Shown here piece by piece: positions 8,865 to 16,185 of a DNA stretch of 64,000 nt (position 1 is the stretch's first letter; every line of letters starts with the position of its first letter). The notes beneath the pieces were generated by a model, which had not been told where the DNA came from, did no database searches, and worked only from the letters and a program-made list of their open reading frames with translations. Position numbers and translations under genes: made by a program. This stretch comes from an unicellular cyanobacterium SU3 (lineage in GTDB: Bacteria; Cyanobacteriota; Cyanobacteriia; Cyanobacteriales; Microcystaceae): assembly GCA_002172675.1 (NCBI GenBank), contig NETF01000110.1, positions 1 through 64,000 on the forward strand, given 5' to 3'.

Positions 8865-8897
8865 GAAAGAGATTTAGTTTAATAAAAAAAGGTAAAA

Positions 8898-9116
8898 ATG
8901 GATAAAATAACCATTGAAGTTGATAATGAAATTGCCCAAGCTTATCGAGAAGCTAAAATAGATAAACAACAAAAGATGCAAACTATTATCAACGATTTAC
9001 TTAAGCAGATGATAAACAATAAAAGTCTTGATGAGATTATTCAAGAAATGCAAACTCAAGCTAAAAATAATGGATTAACTCAAGAAATTTTGGACAATAT
9101 TCTCAATAATGAATAG
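8898..9116 (+). CDS. Antitoxin of a PIN-domain toxin-antitoxin pair
   Basis: 72-residue, charged, helix-rich protein starting MDKITIEVDNEIAQAYREAK, a pattern typical of the small antitoxins encoded in front of COG1569-type PIN toxins in cyanobacteria. The first strand-like segment is followed by a helical region and a C-terminal helix (LDEIIQEMQTQAKNNGLTQE) that would wrap the toxin. Its last 8 bp overlap the toxin start, so translation is coupled. A purine-rich AAAGG ribosome site precedes the ATG. Identification rests mostly on gene context. Confidence 0.8.
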   Translation: MDKITIEVDNEIAQAYREAKIDKQQKMQTIINDLLKQMINNKSLDEIIQEMQTQAKNNGLTQEILDNILNNE

Positions 9117-9528
9117 ATTTAGATTTGTCATTGATACTAACGTTTTAGTTAGCAGTATTCTGATTGAAAAATCTCCAGCAGATCAAGCCTTTAAAAAAAT
9201 TAGAAGCTTGGGTAATCTTTTATTTTCAGAGAGTACCTTACAAGAATTACAAGAAATTTTACAACGTCCTAAATTTAATAAATATGTATCTTATCAAATT
9301 AGAAATCAATTTATGATGAAACTTAAACTCGAAGCAGAAACAATTACTATTTTTGAAAAAATCAATCTCTGTCGAGATCCAAAAGACAATAAATTTCTTG
9401 AAGTTGCTGTTAATGGAAATGCTGATTTTATTATCACGGGAGATAAAGATTTATTAGTATTAAATTCTTTTAAAAATATCGAAATCATCACAGTGAATGA
9501 GTTTTTAAGCAGTTTCAAGGTTAATTGA
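9109..9528 (+). CDS. PIN-domain ribonuclease toxin (VapC-like, COG1569)
   Basis: 139-residue PIN-domain protein, predicted Mg-dependent ribonuclease that would cleave RNA when released from its antitoxin. The acidic active site is visible: D9 in FVIDTNVLVS, E44/E48 in STLQELQEIL, D110 region in RDPKDNKFLEVA, and the terminal aspartates in ADFIITGDKDLL. Length matches the family (130-145). It overlaps the antitoxin by 8 bp. The pair appears intact and is expected to be functional, lying next to the caspase gene that converges on it. Confidence 0.88.
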   Translation: MNRFRFVIDTNVLVSSILIEKSPADQAFKKIRSLGNLLFSESTLQELQEILQRPKFNKYVSYQIRNQFMMKLKLEAETITIFEKINLCRDPKDNKFLEVAVNGNADFIITGDKDLLVLNSFKNIEIITVNEFLSSFKVN

Positions 9529-9575
9529 TTATTATCTCATAATAGTTGCTAAGTAACTTGGAAATATAGTTGACT

Positions 9576-12500
9576 TTATCTTGAGTCTGAATTTTTCAGA
9601 ATAATGATCCATTCTTTCGCTATTTTTATAAATTCAGTTCTATATTGAAACTTAGAATTTTTGTCAAAAGTTTTGTCAATATTTTCAAGGGTATTAATAA
9701 GTCCTTGAATACCAATTGGATTATCTAATATTTTTTCTGATATTAAGAATTGGTTAATAGAATCATCAGTCATCATGCTAATAATTAAAAATACATGAAA
9801 TGATGGATAAAAAACCACAGGAATAGGATGAGGAGTCCAAGCTAATTCTTGATATATCTTTGCTATGTCATCTTTATTTTTACATTTCTGTAATATGGGT
9901 ACTATGATTTCATATAAAACTAAAGTACGGTTTTTTGGAAAAGATTCTATCCACAAACCAACTGCAATTTTAGCCTCTACTAAATTATCCTGATACTCTT
10001 GTAATATTTTAATTAAGCTTACTTTAGCATAAAATTTTTCGATTAAATCTCTATTGAGAAAATAGGTTACAATTGTTGTAATTAAAAACATTAATAAACT
10101 AGGAACAAAGGGCAACCACCAACCAAAAGTAAAGAAAATTAAATAAGAAATTGTGAGTAATAGTACAATACCAAATATAGTATAGGCGAACCATAAAAAG
10201 TTCTTGAAAGACCAATAAGACCATGCCATAACTGCGCCAATAAATCCCCAAGAAATAATCAATATCCATTCTAAATAATCAGGGAGTGGAACTAATAAAT
10301 TTTCTCCGTCTAAAACTGCACTTAAAATTTGGCTGATTAAAGTACCATGAATTTCAACACCAGGCATTTCAAAATTATAGATTTTGGTTGCACTATAAGG
10401 AGTCGGAACAGTATCCCCTAAACTAGGTGCAACAAGACCAATTAAAACAATTTTATCTTTAATCCATTTAGGTTCAAATTTACCTGTTAATAGTTCTTCT
10501 AAGCTAATTTTGCGAGCTATCTTTTGTGATCGATATCGTACTAAAACTTGCCAACCTAGAGTTTCTGATGCTGGTAACTGATAACCACCTGATGTTGAAA
10601 CCAGACGAGGAAATATAGTAGAGTTAATTTTGAGACTATCGGAACTAACGGCAAAATTTTCCAGCTTTTTTTGAAGTTTTAGATATTGAAGACTGACTTG
10701 AAGAGAAAATGAATATTCTTGTATTCGACGAGTGGGAGATTCTACATATAAAAATGAACGACGTACTACATTATCATAATCAATTATTAGATCAGAATAT
10801 CCCACTTGTGAACTAGGAATGTTTCGGGGTGCAGGTACTCCTACATCATCATTTATAGGTAATTTCTTGACGAGAATAATATTATCTAGCCTGAGTGTCT
10901 GAGATAGTTTTTCTGTTCCAGGAGGTTCAGGAATATCTCGCAATATATTTAAGCCAATAACAGCAGGTTTATGGTTTTGTATCGTTTCAATAACTTGAGC
11001 AACTGTTTGATCAGATAATACTGATGTTTGCTGATTTTGCAAATCCTGTTCAGTAATTCCGACAATCAGAAGACGAGGATCAGGCGAGTCATGAGAAGAA
11101 AGGCGAATCATGTGATCATAAGACGCTAATGCTAACCACTGAAGCCAACCTGACTGACGAACACTCCATAGAACCAAGGTTGTTATTGCCACTGAACCAA
11201 GAATTGATAAAACAGATTGTTTCAAACGAAAAGCTTTTATATGGGGTTTTTGTTTTTTAGCTTCCTTTTGAGCGTTGATAAAGATTTCAGAGGCTTTTTT
11301 CCAGGAATTATAAGACTTTTCTGCTTCTATTTGCTTTATTTTTGCGCTTTCTAACTCTTTAATTCGTGCTTTGTCATATTCATCACTTTGGTTATAAAAT
11401 TCTGCTGCTTCGCTAGGATACAGTAAATAAGGCTGTAACTTTTTCCATTGTTGTCTTACCTGTATTAATAATCCTCCCATCATCAAATTTTCATTAATGG
11501 GATGATTTAGCCATTCTTTTCGTTGATCTTCTAATCTTTCACTGAGTCGCAATAAATCTCTAGTTTCCTCTCGCCACTGTTTAAATCTTTGCCATCCATC
11601 AATTAACGCCTCATGTACCAAGTCAACCCATCCATTATGAATATTATTAGAACATATATCACTACCTGTAACTAACAAACGAGCATTAACTAATCCTTGC
11701 TTACCATAAATCAGTTTTTCTAAAATTTTCTGTTTTTCTATGTCTTCAGTAGCAATATTTAATAAAATGTCTTTTGGTTGTCGTTGTCTAGTATCTTGTT
11801 CTTGATTATTGGTACGAATTAACCGCAGAAAAATTAACTTAATTAACTCTTTTTCTGTTTCTTTTCGCTCTTTTTGAGGATTATCTCTATTATAGTCTTG
11901 ATAGTTATAAACTTTCTCTGCATAAATATCCAAAGCTTTCGTTAACCCTGTATTATTGCTCTCTTTATCTTTTTGTCTTCCAGTTTCTCCTTCCCCTAAC
12001 TTTTCATAAGCATTTAACGTCAAAACCTGATGATCTTCATCTCGTTTATCCCATAAAAGAGTCAAAGCAAACTCCAATAAAGGCAAAAATCCTTGCTTTT
12101 TCCCGACATCACTCAATAAGCGAAGCAATAAATCATGTTCTATTTCATATCCTTGACGTTGAGCCGGTTCAATAATAATGTCTTGTTTATCTTTTTCTTC
12201 CAACGGAGGCATATAAATGGCCTGATGTTGGATAATTTCATATAAGGATTGATATTGTAAACAGCGATCTAAAAAATCTGCTCTCATGGCGATCGCAATC
12301 ACTATATTTTGCTCATTTTTGTTCCTAAAATTAGTGATGAGTTCAATAAATCGTCTTCTGCCTTCTTCTGAACGACAAATAGTGAAAATTTCTTCAAATT
12401 GATCAATAAATAAAAAATATTTGCGAGAATTGGGCAAAATTTCAACAATATTCTGAATATTTTGATCTTTATCCTCAATGATCTCTTTTAACTCTTCTTC

Positions 12501-13598
12501 ATCTAAACTGACATAATTCTTAAAAACTCGTCTCAACTCGCTTAAAGGCTCAATACCTGGTTTAATCGTCGGTAAAATACGCCATTCTTGACTTTCCGCT
12601 TCTAACCATGCCATAACACCTGCATACACTACCGAAGATTTACCAGTACCAGAAGCCCCAATAATGGGAATAACGCCAAAATTATCTAATTTTTGCTTAA
12701 TATCTTCCGTTAATTGCTGTCTACCAAAGAAAAAAGCTTTTTCTTTAGCGGTAAACACATTTAACCCTTGATAGGGACAAACAATTTCACCGTTATTATC
12801 TCGTATTGGTTCAATTTCTGGGATTTCTTCGTTATTAGATAGAGGATACTTAACCAAGGTAATTGATCCACCAATTCCCATGTGTCTTGGTGTTTGTAAC
12901 TTACCTCCGATTTTTGTATTGACAAAATCAAACAACCGATTGCAACTTATTTTCCCGTTTTTATCTTTATTCTTATCAGATAATCCCTCAATAATAGCTC
13001 CAGAAAATACACTATGTTCTTCTTTTCTAATCGTTTTAGCTGTTTCAAAAGAACGACACGCGGTTATTAAATAATAATTCTGTTTATGTGCAAATGTCTT
13101 TAAACTCTTTTCTATTAAATAAGTTTCAATAAAATTGCCACTATGACAACAATCTAATAATAAAACTAATTCACTTAAATTTGCTTGCTCAATTAAATAG
13201 TTTAAATCTTCTAACGGAAAACTATTTTTTTCTTCAATTATTTTATTATCTTTAATTACTACCTGACAATTTGAAGTAGCTAAATATCCCTTTTCTCTTC
13301 CCAAGCGATCGCAAATCGTAAACCCATGACCTGTAAAATAAATTAAAGCTGGTTGATTTTCGGCTGTTTTAGTTAAAAATAGTTCTAATTCATTATATAA
13401 CTCTTCATCTGTTACTTTTCCTGCTTTCATCTCGTAGTCTGCTGTCTCAAAATTTCCTTTTCTGGGAAATCTTGTTATGTCATAATCTCCATATTGATGT
13501 AGAATTTGAGCGATCGCTTCTGCATCTTGAGTTGTTTTCTCAAGGGGTTTAAAGTGATCGTATTCAGGAATAGCAATAACTAGAGCATATTTCGTCAT
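9576..13598 (-). CDS. Caspase-nSTAND ATPase-CHASE2 membrane protein
   Basis: 1340-residue multidomain protein. Residues 1-250 form a C14 caspase-like (orthocaspase) domain with the catalytic pair H91 in YFTGHGF and C151 in LLLDCCHSG. Residues about 275-760 are an nSTAND NTPase: PYQGL lead-in, Walker A GASGTGKS (314-321), Walker B FLFIDQFEE (395-403) and IAMRADF (427-433). One membrane helix (about 795-813) leads to a CHASE2 sensor (about 815-1100, predicted extracytoplasmic), then three helices (about 1107-1192) and a 150-residue cytoplasmic tail. The layout predicts an outside sensor regulating an ATP-driven internal protease. It is divergent from a TRYPCO1-type gene 262 bp away. Catalytic residues are seen; the death or immunity role is inferred. 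Confidence 0.9.
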   Translation of the reverse strand: MTKYALVIAIPEYDHFKPLEKTTQDAEAIAQILHQYGDYDITRFPRKGNFETADYEMKAGKVTDEELYNELELFLTKTAENQPALIYFTGHGFTICDRLGREKGYLATSNCQVVIKDNKIIEEKNSFPLEDLNYLIEQANLSELVLLLDCCHSGNFIETYLIEKSLKTFAHKQNYYLITACRSFETAKTIRKEEHSVFSGAIIEGLSDKNKDKNGKISCNRLFDFVNTKIGGKLQTPRHMGIGGSITLVKYPLSNNEEIPEIEPIRDNNGEIVCPYQGLNVFTAKEKAFFFGRQQLTEDIKQKLDNFGVIPIIGASGTGKSSVVYAGVMAWLEAESQEWRILPTIKPGIEPLSELRRVFKNYVSLDEEELKEIIEDKDQNIQNIVEILPNSRKYFLFIDQFEEIFTICRSEEGRRRFIELITNFRNKNEQNIVIAIAMRADFLDRCLQYQSLYEIIQHQAIYMPPLEEKDKQDIIIEPAQRQGYEIEHDLLLRLLSDVGKKQGFLPLLEFALTLLWDKRDEDHQVLTLNAYEKLGEGETGRQKDKESNNTGLTKALDIYAEKVYNYQDYNRDNPQKERKETEKELIKLIFLRLIRTNNQEQDTRQRQPKDILLNIATEDIEKQKILEKLIYGKQGLVNARLLVTGSDICSNNIHNGWVDLVHEALIDGWQRFKQWREETRDLLRLSERLEDQRKEWLNHPINENLMMGGLLIQVRQQWKKLQPYLLYPSEAAEFYNQSDEYDKARIKELESAKIKQIEAEKSYNSWKKASEIFINAQKEAKKQKPHIKAFRLKQSVLSILGSVAITTLVLWSVRQSGWLQWLALASYDHMIRLSSHDSPDPRLLIVGITEQDLQNQQTSVLSDQTVAQVIETIQNHKPAVIGLNILRDIPEPPGTEKLSQTLRLDNIILVKKLPINDDVGVPAPRNIPSSQVGYSDLIIDYDNVVRRSFLYVESPTRRIQEYSFSLQVSLQYLKLQKKLENFAVSSDSLKINSTIFPRLVSTSGGYQLPASETLGWQVLVRYRSQKIARKISLEELLTGKFEPKWIKDKIVLIGLVAPSLGDTVPTPYSATKIYNFEMPGVEIHGTLISQILSAVLDGENLLVPLPDYLEWILIISWGFIGAVMAWSYWSFKNFLWFAYTIFGIVLLLTISYLIFFTFGWWLPFVPSLLMFLITTIVTYFLNRDLIEKFYAKVSLIKILQEYQDNLVEAKIAVGLWIESFPKNRTLVLYEIIVPILQKCKNKDDIAKIYQELAWTPHPIPVVFYPSFHVFLIISMMTDDSINQFLISEKILDNPIGIQGLINTLENIDKTFDKNSKFQYRTEFIKIAKEWIIILKNSDSR

Positions 13599-13758
13599 TC
13601 TTCAAGACAAAAGCAAGTGTTGAGTTTCTATTTTAAATTATTTACAGAAATAGGACATTAATTTCATAAAATTTAACTATTATAAGTTTCAAATCATTTT
13701 ACAATCAACTAGATGCTCTTAGAGACTGTTTATCAACTAAATAAAAGTTTATTTATTT

Positions 13759-13823
13759 GGTGGGTTACGGCGAATGAGTCTATTAAAAATTAATATCAAC
13801 GCTTGACCATTGCCTAACCCACC
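13759..13823. repeat. Palindromic repeat element (GGTGGGTTA arms)
   Basis: GGTGGGTTACGGC (13759-13771) is nearly complementary to TGCCTAACCCACC (13811-13823), with about 39 bp between. GTGGGTTA...TAACCCAC palindromes of this kind occur as small interspersed elements in many cyanobacterial genomes. It sits in the shared upstream region of the caspase and TRYPCO1-type genes and may affect their expression. Confidence 0.6.
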
Positions 13824-13860
13824 CTACCCAAAAGTGACTAACTAGAAATTACCTAAAAAA

Positions 13861-14193
13861 ATGAGCCAAAAACTATATTTTGAAACCGATCAAGGATTAG
13901 ATAATATTGATGTCAACCCTGTTATAATTCCTCTTAAAGAAGATGATGGAATTGATGAGATGGGAGGATTACCTATTAATATAACTCAACAACTGGATCA
14001 AGCACAACAAATGATAAAAGACTGTGCAGAATATACTTTAAATTCTTTCAAGAATTTTGCTGCTGCTGAAGTCGATGAAATTACCTTAAAATTTGGTATA
14101 AAATTAGGAGGAGAAGCAGGAATTCCTTATATTACCAAAGGAACAGCAGAAAGTAATATCGAAATAGAAATTAAGTGTAAATTTCCGCAGTAA
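13861..14193 (+). CDS. TRYPCO1 (CU044_2847-type) domain protein
   Basis: 110-residue protein resembling the trypsin-co-occurring domain 1 / CU044_2847 family. The diagnostic C-terminal pattern is EVDEITLKFGIKLGGEAGIP then ITKGTAESNIEIEIKCKF (residues about 70-108). In the N-terminal half are a strand-rich start and a helix (LPINITQQLDQAQQMIKDCAEYTLNSF). Members are known from comparative genomics as components of predicted conflict systems with trypsin-like or caspase-like proteases and STAND NTPases. Here it stands divergent from the caspase-nSTAND-CHASE2 gene, the expected partner. The molecular role is not established; a regulatory or signal-relay part is an inference. Confidence 0.75.
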   Translation: MSQKLYFETDQGLDNIDVNPVIIPLKEDDGIDEMGGLPINITQQLDQAQQMIKDCAEYTLNSFKNFAAAEVDEITLKFGIKLGGEAGIPYITKGTAESNIEIEIKCKFPQ

Positions 14194-14561: not shown

Positions 14562-15167
14562 TTAACGTACAGCAATTTCTTGTAAAAATTCTGATTCTAT
14601 AATAAGAGGACTTTTAGTCAGTCCTTGATTAACAAATTTTTCTAATATTTCAGATGTTAAATTAGATAAACATTTACTCTGAGCAATTTTTATATATCCT
14701 TTACTTTGTAGTTCATAAAAAGTGATTTTCTCATTTTTCCAGAACCAAACTTCTTTAATTCCTATCGTTTTATATTTATTAAGATCATCAAGACTACCAC
14801 TAGAAAATATAACTTCGACAACTAAATCAGGAATATCTTTATCCATATTGAAAGAAAAACTAACATCAGGTTCTTTTCCTGCTAATGGTTTATTTTCTAA
14901 CCGAGTAGAACCCATCGGAAAATAAAGTAAATTAAACTTTCTACAATAAGCAACTATTAAAATAGCAATGGTTTGAGCAATTCTTTCATGATTTTTGCTA
15001 GGGGACACTAAAGTAATGACTCCATTGAAATAAGAAATTCTATAACCTAAGTATTCTTCTGAATTAAATTGTTCATAATCTGTCCAAGTCATTCCAGCAA
15101 AACTAAGAGTTTGATCTTGTTTTTCAAGGTGTTCAATATTTAGGGGAAATTTTGCATTGATTAACAT
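14562..15167 (-). CDS. Uma2-family (DUF820) PD-(D/E)XK nuclease-fold protein
   Basis: 201 residues of the Uma2/DUF820 family, a restriction-endonuclease-like fold strongly expanded in cyanobacteria. The family core is visible: EPDVSFSF (about 107-114), PDLVVEVIFSS (about 121-131) with the acidic residue of the core strand, and KYKTIGIKEVWFWKNE (about 139-154), in which the K/Y...GVxEVW pattern is characteristic. Length is usual (180-210). Substrate and role remain unknown for the family; association with mobile regions is common. It has no partner gene and sits beside a MITE-like element. Confidence 0.85.
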   Translation of the reverse strand: MLINAKFPLNIEHLEKQDQTLSFAGMTWTDYEQFNSEEYLGYRISYFNGVITLVSPSKNHERIAQTIAILIVAYCRKFNLLYFPMGSTRLENKPLAGKEPDVSFSFNMDKDIPDLVVEVIFSSGSLDDLNKYKTIGIKEVWFWKNEKITFYELQSKGYIKIAQSKCLSNLTSEILEKFVNQGLTKSPLIIESEFLQEIAVR

Positions 15168-15660: not shown

Positions 15661-15677
15661 CATACTATATATGTATG
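15661..15677. promoter_or_regulatory. Interrupted palindrome over the brnT start codon
   Basis: CATAC (15661-15665) and GTATG (15673-15677) form 5-bp arms around a 7-bp A/T centre and overlap the brnT ATG (15675). BrnA antitoxins are DNA-binding autoregulators, so this may be the operator. The arms are short, so support is limited. Confidence 0.35.
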
Positions 15678-15947
15678 AGCTTTGAATATGATCCCCAAAA
15701 AGCTAAAATCAACCAGCAAAAGCATGGAGTTTCTTTTGCAGAAACTGAAATGGTCTTTTTTGATCCCCTAGCTATTCATGATATTGATCCTGATTCTGTA
15801 ACAGAAGAACGTTTTATCGCTGTTGGGATGGGAAACAAGGGATTACTATTAGTGGTTGTTTATACCCTGCGAGGTGACATAATTCGTTTAATTTCGGCTC
15901 GTCGTGCTACAAAAAAGGAGAAGAAAACTTATGAGAGAGGAATATGA
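15675..15947 (+). CDS. brnT: BrnT-family ribonuclease toxin
   Basis: 90-residue BrnT (DUF497) toxin, a RelE-like fold ribonuclease. The family marks are clear: FEYDPQKAKINQQKHGVSF at the N-terminus (normally F.WD..K...N..KHGVsF), a central TEERFIAVGMGNKGLLLVVVYT strand pair, and the terminal RLISARRATKKEKKTYE with the catalytic/RNA-binding RxxSAR pattern. Length matches. Its last 17 bp overlap brnA in another frame, so the pair is translationally coupled. Nothing suggests inactivation. Confidence 0.93.
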   Translation: MSFEYDPQKAKINQQKHGVSFAETEMVFFDPLAIHDIDPDSVTEERFIAVGMGNKGLLLVVVYTLRGDIIRLISARRATKKEKKTYERGI

Positions 15948-16185
15948 TTTTTCTAAAGGAAAGCGAGGTGCAATTATTCCATCTAAGGGAAAAACACCCA
16001 TCACTATATATCTAGATGATAATATTCTAGCTGAATTTAGAGAACAAGCCGAACAAGAAGGAATTGGCTATCAAACCCTAATCAACCGCGTTTTAAAGCA
16101 ACACATCCAATCTCCTCATCGGCGATCGCTCACTGAAGCAGATTTACGCCGTATTCTTCGGGAAGAATTATCAGAAAAATTATAA
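15931..16185 (+). CDS. brnA: BrnA-family antitoxin
   Basis: 84-residue BrnA antitoxin with the YDFSKGKRGAIIPSKGKTPI lead segment that binds the toxin, followed by a ribbon-helix-helix DNA-binding domain (ITIYLDDNILAEFREQAEQE and GIGYQTLINRVLKQHI). I chose the ATG at 15931, preceded by AAGGAG ten bases upstream; a TTG-type extension to 15904 would add basic residues unlike the family. It overlaps brnT by 17 bp. It neutralises BrnT and likely represses the operon. Downstream, a HIP1 octamer lies inside the 3' end. Confidence 0.92.
   Translation: MREEYDFSKGKRGAIIPSKGKTPITIYLDDNILAEFREQAEQEGIGYQTLINRVLKQHIQSPHRRSLTEADLRRILREELSEKL

Follow-up and report, generated by a model that had tools for sequence, protein, structure and literature searches.

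The 64,000-nucleotide window analysed here, positions 1 to 64,000 of contig NETF01000110.1 (assembly GCA_002172675.1) of the unicellular cyanobacterium SU3, carries two divergent genes that, on balance, probably belong to a two-gene module of cyanobacteria. The module would consist of a constant core, in which a caspase-like peptidase is joined to an nSTAND1 NTPase, an exchangeable C-terminal domain that serves as input, and a dedicated Trypco1 gene transcribed in the opposite direction. In the window copy the C-terminal domain is CHASE2, flanked by predicted transmembrane (TM) segments. The pairing of the two genes is real and recurs across the order, and both the exchange of C-termini and the separation of caspase-linked from trypsin-linked Trypco1 proteins can be read from the trees described below.

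The two genes of the window

The larger gene (9576..13598, minus strand) is an open reading frame (ORF) with an ATG start that encodes a protein of 1340 amino acids, and three Pfam matches above the curated cut-offs account for most of its length. Residues 3-231 (12906..13592) match Peptidase_C14 (PF00656, E 4.8e-15) and hold an intact dyad of H91 and C151, which together mark a caspase homologue of the orthocaspase type. Residues 275-699 (11502..12776) match nSTAND1 (PF20703, E 2.2e-93, 314 bits), with the P-loop GASGTGKS at 314-321 and a Walker B motif that starts at residue 395 and includes D399, E402 and E403. Residues 806-1122 (10233..11183) match the sensor domain CHASE2 (PF05226, E 3.1e-59, 201 bits), which is bounded, as in CHASE2 receptors, by hydropathy peaks that predict membrane helices: TM1 at residues 795-813 (11160..11216), with a basic stretch before it, and TM2-TM4 at residues 1109-1127, 1141-1159 and 1162-1180 (region 1109-1186, 10041..10274). 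Because one predicted TM segment precedes CHASE2 and three follow it, the caspase and NTPase would lie in the cytoplasm and CHASE2 outside it. About 155 residues follow TM4 and form a tail (about residues 1180-1340, 9579..10061) with one weaker hydropathy peak at 1259-1277. No sequence relative of the whole protein was found in the PDB at E 0.01, and a scan of genome contigs with the full protein returned a single locus.

An intergenic region of 262 bp (13599..13860) separates this gene from the divergent Trypco1 gene (13861..14193, plus strand), whose product of 110 amino acids matches PF19493 over residues 39-108 (E 7.7e-19, 68.6 bits against a cut-off of 24.6) and the NCBIfam family CU044_2847 (82.3 bits against a cut-off of 23). 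The protein looks soluble, because no hydropathy peak over 1.5 occurs in 76 of the 78 Trypco1 sequences that were aligned, that of the window included. Orthocaspases prefer Arg, and Trypco1 is unlikely to be an Arg-specific substrate of the caspase in the window copy, which contains no arginine. An earlier note, made from the letters of the sequence alone, had proposed a caspase dyad, an nSTAND P-loop and Walker B, a membrane-bound CHASE2 domain and a tail in one 1340-residue protein, with a TRYPCO1-type gene 262 bp away in the opposite direction, and had made its reading depend on a PF19493 match there. Profile searches, motif conservation and hydropathy bear out each of these points, the PF19493 match being well above its cut-off.

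Conservation of the divergent pair

To place the pair in a wider setting, 388 genomes of the order were searched with the 1340-residue protein, which gave matches at E 1e-30 in 362 of them, with at most two candidates scored per genome; 75 regions (L035-L109) were then taken from among the matches listed, by similarity to the window core. A core was counted where the match of an ORF begins before query residue 60 and runs past residue 480, which gave 69 cores including that of the window. Seven regions (L036, L040, L067, L083, L090, L101 and L109) have no such core, and only L067 of these has a Trypco1 gene. A Trypco1 gene stands head to head with the 5' end of the core gene at 55 of the 69 loci, and these 55 represent 25 of the 32 genera and 11 of the 12 families; none was found in any non-divergent arrangement at the 69 loci. 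Homologues of the two genes are thus usually adjacent, where the earlier note had taken rare adjacency as the result that would speak against it. The gaps between the stop-to-stop ORFs of the 55 pairs range from -80 to 384 bp, with a median of 85. The Trypco1 profile used in this survey was iterated on the same loci, and Pfam's own model recognises all 24 members of a selected alignment, of which 22 are caspase-linked, one is trypsin-linked and one lies at a contig edge. Within the core, H91, C151, G314, G317, G319, K320, D399, E402 and E403 are invariant in all 69 sequences.

The reverse approach, with the Pfam Trypco1 model applied to 30 chosen genomes (24 of them with a counted core), found 61 matches, spread over 25 genomes. 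Besides that of the window (L001), 29 loci were classified, and all 29 have a peptidase neighbour: in 14 a trypsin-like gene lies directly downstream in the same direction, and in 15 a caspase gene is divergent from Trypco1. Nine of these 15 (L164, L167-L170, L172, L173, L177 and L178) were already among the 55 pairs and six are new. The other 31 matches are unclassified except for L003, at a contig edge, and L002, a second Trypco1 gene of the window's own genome, which is co-directional with its trypsin partner and adjoins a trypsin-NTPase protein. With L002 included, the resulting 15/0/0/15 table gives a two-sided Fisher value of 1.3e-8, which is only a guide because related loci are not independent.

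The two arrangements correspond to two lineages. In a tree of 78 Trypco1 sequences, 62 caspase-linked (one locus counted twice) and 15 trypsin-linked rows fall on opposite sides of one branch with a support of 97 in the Shimodaira-Hasegawa-like approximate likelihood ratio test, in an alignment that has few columns and in which the trypsin-linked rows sit on long branches. The motif G[IV]Px[ILV]TxG is present in 58 of the 62 caspase-linked rows and in none of the 15 trypsin-linked ones, and by eye the region that joins the N-terminal part to the helix is longer, and often acidic, in the caspase-linked proteins.

Some of these loci hold further genes. At L154, which is of the trypsin type, an extra caspase gene lies about 0.7 kb away on the other side of Trypco1, and at L170 a caspase-type Trypco1 gene is flanked by the divergent caspase gene on one side and, downstream, by another caspase ORF that runs in its own direction. 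An ORF of 240-245 amino acids follows Trypco1 in the same direction at four caspase-linked loci (L159, L161, L175 and L176) and is a possible third component.

Exchange of the C-terminal domain

C-termini of at least 40 amino acids are present in 59 of the core proteins, and 31 of these, including that of the window, were scanned with Pfam. The result was WD40 in 21, FGE-sulfatase in two, HisKA/HATPase in one, NfeD in one, pentapeptide repeats in one, CHASE2 in two and no match in three, so that the variable C-terminus known from other caspase systems occurs here in six Pfam types. The remaining C-termini were typed by cluster or by a simple count of WD motifs, which missed two of the 21 Pfam-proven WD40 proteins, and seven rows were left undecided. 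At least six changes of C-terminal type are needed to explain the core tree (five with the 28 Pfam-typed rows); histidine-kinase and WD40 forms occur together in one small clade, and the sister of the NfeD form has WD40.

The CHASE2 form was seen in one genus, that of the window, where three relatives carry it (G354, G325 and G345, the last two with the gene split over two contigs and joined into one by inference) and a fourth congener (G307) carries the WD40 form. A DNA comparison of the window with G307 shows where the exchange lies: positions 11350-13728 of the window align at 82% identity and positions 8895-9536, a PIN module, at 92%, and similarity is lost between these two stretches, in the part that bears the sensor. 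The earlier note had taken CHASE2 as the sensor domain of the receptor. The domain is indeed there, but that description needs widening, since CHASE2 is just one among the C-termini that are exchanged.

The CHASE2 domain and the tail have other relatives. CHASE2-only relatives within the genus are 46-54% identical to the CHASE2 domain of the window; the one at 46% is a CHASE2-GGDEF-EAL protein of the same genome, and those at 49-54% were identified by similarity and not by a domain scan. In the CHASE2-GGDEF-EAL protein the sensor is N-terminal and the output C-terminal, whereas in the window protein the output is N-terminal and the tail takes up the usual output position. A protein of another family, at L109:7696-12096 in genome G096, has the order CHAT-nSTAND1-CHASE2, with CHAT in place of the caspase, and no Trypco1 gene was found within the 16 kb region around it. 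It looks like a parallel assembly, and because such a CHAT version exists in another family, the protease-nSTAND1-CHASE2 arrangement appears to have been put together more than once.

The tail is 72-75% identical among four copies in the genus and has no Pfam match that would identify it as a remnant of a known output domain. Its sequence similarity to the beginning of an AAA/STAND-like ATPase of G343 is weak (E 3.9e-4, one of 50 genomes; E 5.6e-4 in the reverse direction), and a later search recovered this copy with a profile that already contained it. Seven of 110 genomes have relatives of the ATPase stretch at E 5e-30 or better, and a profile of seven such stretches aligns with a profile of the tail at an hhalign probability of 96.5 over 83 columns. 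Six longer ATPase relatives (L144-L149) have hydropathy peaks in the N-terminal part; such peaks are absent from the protein of G343. Because such peaks precede the tail-like stretch, as their coordinates show in L145 and L146, the tail may be a membrane-proximal coupling domain. Its use as a homotypic adaptor for a partner in the same genome was considered and rejected, as the only related ATPase found in the family is that of G343, a genome in which no CHASE2 form was seen. The STAND/AAA-like ATPases with a tail-related domain (L144-L149 and L137), most of which have N-terminal hydrophobic segments, possibly belong to an undescribed system of their own; the gene is accompanied at L137 and L145 by a further ORF that is ATPase-like or of membrane type.

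Location, mobility and selection

In the window the pair is flanked by what we take to be rubA and ycf48-like genes on one side and gnd on the other. The four neighbours that were scanned match PIN, Uma2, BrnT and BrnA. The PIN gene (8899-9528) is a PIN-domain toxin gene (TIGR00305) with a short upstream ORF that resembles its antitoxin, and the same module (PIN 91% identical in amino acids) recurs in G307 (L038), there downstream of the WD40 form of the gene. On the other side are a Uma2 gene (14562-15167) and a BrnT/BrnA toxin-antitoxin pair (15675-16185).

The pair appears to occupy the same site in G345, where it spans two contig ends. In G322 the same rubA-gnd site (L127:3225-7250) holds, by eye, a kinase/WG-repeat-like ORF of 831 amino acids and a PIN-like ORF, and a caspase gene is absent. 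G325 and G307 have the pair at other places, and the stretch beside gnd lacks it in both, as it does in G293, G343 and G328. The site is a possible integration hotspot.

Relatives of the core (E 1e-30) occur on 38 of 72,556 plasmid records and relatives of Trypco1 (E 0.01) on five, all of them cyanobacterial. Seven of the 38 plasmid regions were opened, and in three, from three cyanobacteria, a gene annotated as CU044_2847 by NCBI is divergent from the core. Two Tolypothrix plasmid regions have a divergent hypothetical gene beside the core, of which the one scanned gave no NCBIfam match, and on a Nostoc carneum plasmid (L179) a caspase-nSTAND1-WD40 gene, annotated as a diguanylate cyclase, is preceded by another, co-directional caspase gene. 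The seventh region, from Streptomyces, holds an EACC1-type protein that is taken up below. Trypco1 had no match at E 1e-3 among 50,697 phage records, and 68 pattern matches in viral contigs yielded no confirmed Trypco1 relative.

Both genes are under purifying selection. The ratio of nonsynonymous to synonymous substitution (dN/dS), estimated against the relatives in the genus with our own Nei-Gojobori script and leaving aside the G354 Trypco1 gene, which is cut by a contig end, comes to 0.10-0.21 in Trypco1, and within the larger gene it is 0.21-0.26 in the caspase part, 0.22-0.38 in nSTAND1, 0.25-0.39 in the linker, 0.33-0.37 in CHASE2 with its TM segments and 0.35-0.44 in the tail. With values of 0.10-0.44 in the compared parts, both genes look maintained, and Trypco1 is under stronger constraint (0.10-0.21) than the sensor and tail (0.33-0.44).

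Relation to known systems

Several of the proteins involved have known counterparts: caspase-CHASE2, caspase-NTPase-WD40 and EACC2-caspase-CHASE2 proteins are recorded in the available parts of earlier accounts (PMC2853523, PMC3501461, PMC7475262, PMC8195603). The association of Trypco1 with peptidases is known as well. The available text of PMC7159879 pairs Trypco1 with trypsin, and caspase with an alpha/beta-hydrolase, as mutually exclusive alternatives in VMAP systems, and in that of PMC10907252 caspase-like genes share loci with Trypco1/Trypco2. The statement of the earlier note that TRYPCO1 domains and caspase/trypsin-STAND proteins co-occur in conflict systems needs qualifying here, since of these two accounts it is PMC10907252 alone that brings Trypco1 and caspase-like genes together. 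A divergent caspase-nSTAND1/Trypco1 pair is not described in the available text of these two papers, and their supplementary tables may list it. In the published Trypco1-trypsin pairs, including the VMAP/MoxR-vWA ternary systems (PMC7159879, PMC10907252, available parts), the same small domain stands beside a peptidase; these trypsin-linked proteins form the separate, co-directional lineage, while the window gene is divergent and its partner is a caspase. Neither MoxR nor vWA is found among the four scanned neighbours.

The EACC1 systems (PMC7159879, available part) resemble the window in having two genes, a small constant partner and a caspase protein with highly variable C-termini, some of which include TM segments and extracellular binding domains. 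The EACC1 partner, however, is a co-directional 5' protein with a single TM segment, whereas the window partner is a divergent Trypco1 with no hydropathy peak over 1.5. Membership was rejected on partner and orientation, and the window caspase scores 82.9 bits on caspase_w_EACC1 against a cut-off of 140. An EACC1-type protein, encoded on a plasmid of Streptomyces sp. NBC_00053, has the order caspase (EACC1 type, 209 bits)-nSTAND1-SBP_bac_3, and the co-directional gene upstream of it has no NCBIfam match. The TRADD-N/EACC2-caspase systems (PMC8195603, available part) also combine a small partner gene with a caspase whose C-terminus varies and may include TM segments and CHASE2. In these systems EACC2 precedes the caspase and the partner is TRADD-N, while in the window the caspase begins at residue 3 and the neighbour is Trypco1; no neighbour scanned with Pfam matched TRADD-N, the EACC2 profile not having been searched by name.

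A close likeness to the window receptor is the caspase-CHASE2 protein of Trichodesmium erythraeum (PMC2853523, PMC3501461), which as far as those sources are available has an N-terminal caspase, one TM segment before CHASE2 and three after it, and a predicted cytoplasmic protease with an external sensor, the topology proposed here. Their available text describes no NTPase and no Trypco1 neighbour for that protein, although nSTAND1 was named later and may have been overlooked. Caspase-NACHT-WD40 and caspase-STAND-FGS proteins (PMC3501461, PMC8195603, available parts) share the core order and end in repeats or lectin-like domains. The WD40 and FGE forms found here are relatives of the window core, which has CHASE2 in their place; a conserved divergent Trypco1 gene is not described for either type in the same parts of those papers.

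Alternative explanations

Several observations weigh against a dedicated caspase-nSTAND1/Trypco1 module. Fourteen of the 69 cores are unpaired: six WD40 forms, two forms whose C-termini were not recognised, and, all within a single family, six short proteins (L063-L066, L068 and L069; 652-668 amino acids) that have neither a sensor at the C-terminus nor a Trypco1 gene beside them. Pairing has been gained or lost at least seven times on the core tree, and together these two results mean that Trypco1 is not strictly required by the core. Four of the seven plasmid regions opened have no annotated Trypco1 gene beside the core. The survey sample is biased, with at most two candidates per genome and with rows chosen, among the matches listed, for similarity to the core, and such sampling favours intact motifs. 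Structurally, binding of Trypco1 to the core is conjecture, since the protein has no sequence relative in the PDB below E 0.5 and its single-sequence structure model is poor (predicted local distance difference test 45, predicted template modelling score 0.36). Finally, PADLOC recognises the locus by its generic caspase model alone (42.9 bits); no PADLOC model of a named anti-phage defence system matched, and there is no PADLOC model for the Trypco1 gene.

A defence role is plausible from the company and mobility of the pair, and its main rival is a signalling protease. The CHASE2-caspase protein would then be a housekeeping or differentiation receptor, with controlled processing in normal signalling as its output and not defence or death. 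The kinship of its sensor with the CHASE2-GGDEF-EAL protein of its own genome and with other CHASE2 proteins of the genus, the absence of a named defence system in PADLOC, and the homeostatic roles argued for orthocaspases in the available part of PMC5756287 are consistent with such a receptor, but the patchy presence, swapped sensors and plasmid-borne relatives look like those of accessory or conflict genes, and the equivalent site of a congener holds other accessory genes. We consider the housekeeping receptor unlikely, although it deserves to be taken seriously. It is also conceivable, and less likely still, that Trypco1 leaves the core protein alone and instead regulates the divergent promoter, at the level of transcription or in an antitoxin-like way. 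All 15 caspase-linked loci of the reverse approach and all 55 pairs are divergent about a short shared intergenic region, which fits such a regulator. Such control cannot be general to the family, however, since trypsin-linked Trypco1 genes are co-directional; moreover, only Trypco1/CU044_2847 families, and no DNA-binding family, match the window protein in Pfam and NCBIfam. The intergenic DNA is poorly conserved even inside the genus, with gaps of 76-350 bp in four relatives, and a conserved operator was sought in five genus sequences and rejected, apart from a short TTCTATTTTA-like stretch. That the two genes are inherited or hitch-hiking neighbours with no joint function is very improbable: neighbourhoods of related genomes are not independent and the 14 unpaired cores would fit, but the pair persists in the genus while its location and C-terminus change, plasmids from three cyanobacteria carry it, and the type of peptidase goes with the lineage of Trypco1.

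A model for the module and its implications

STAND proteins are ATP-gated switches, and caspases are activated by proximity. The domain layout of the module suits a division of labour in which the C-terminal domain would read the signal, nSTAND1 would integrate it and the caspase would execute the response. In the window copy, CHASE2 would read an external signal, either a ligand or a stress, and the autoinhibition of nSTAND1 would then be released; ATP-driven assembly would bring caspase domains together, and these might cleave cellular targets, with cell death, dormancy or remodelling as the outcome. That an outside stimulus can in this way trigger an internal protease is a fair inference from the domain order. 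Trypco1 most likely acts on the peptidase-NTPase core and not on the sensor, because it is kept with the core through changes of sensor and its lineage follows the class of the peptidase; by binding there it would set the threshold of the protease, whether upward or downward. Its separate promoter argues for a regulator and not for an operon subunit made in fixed ratio.

If these steps hold, the genes may represent a class of bacterial two-gene conflict system that has not been described before, "divergent Trypco1 + caspase-nSTAND1-X", with an invariant ATP-gated core, a private Trypco1 and interchangeable sensors, of which the window copy would be a transmembrane death receptor that links an external signal to a cytoplasmic caspase in one polypeptide. 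We advance this wider proposal tentatively, as one that may well fall short of the simpler description of the module.

Trypco1 itself is recast by these comparisons: it is not a partner of trypsins only but a peptidase partner with two lineages, each bound to a class of peptidase and to a gene orientation. Cyanobacteria appear to offer a simple two-gene caspase module with a swappable sensor, and its CHASE2 form is a candidate for a transmembrane caspase receptor made of one protein. With sensors that occur naturally and can be removed or swapped, the question of what cyanobacterial caspases respond to becomes a testable one.

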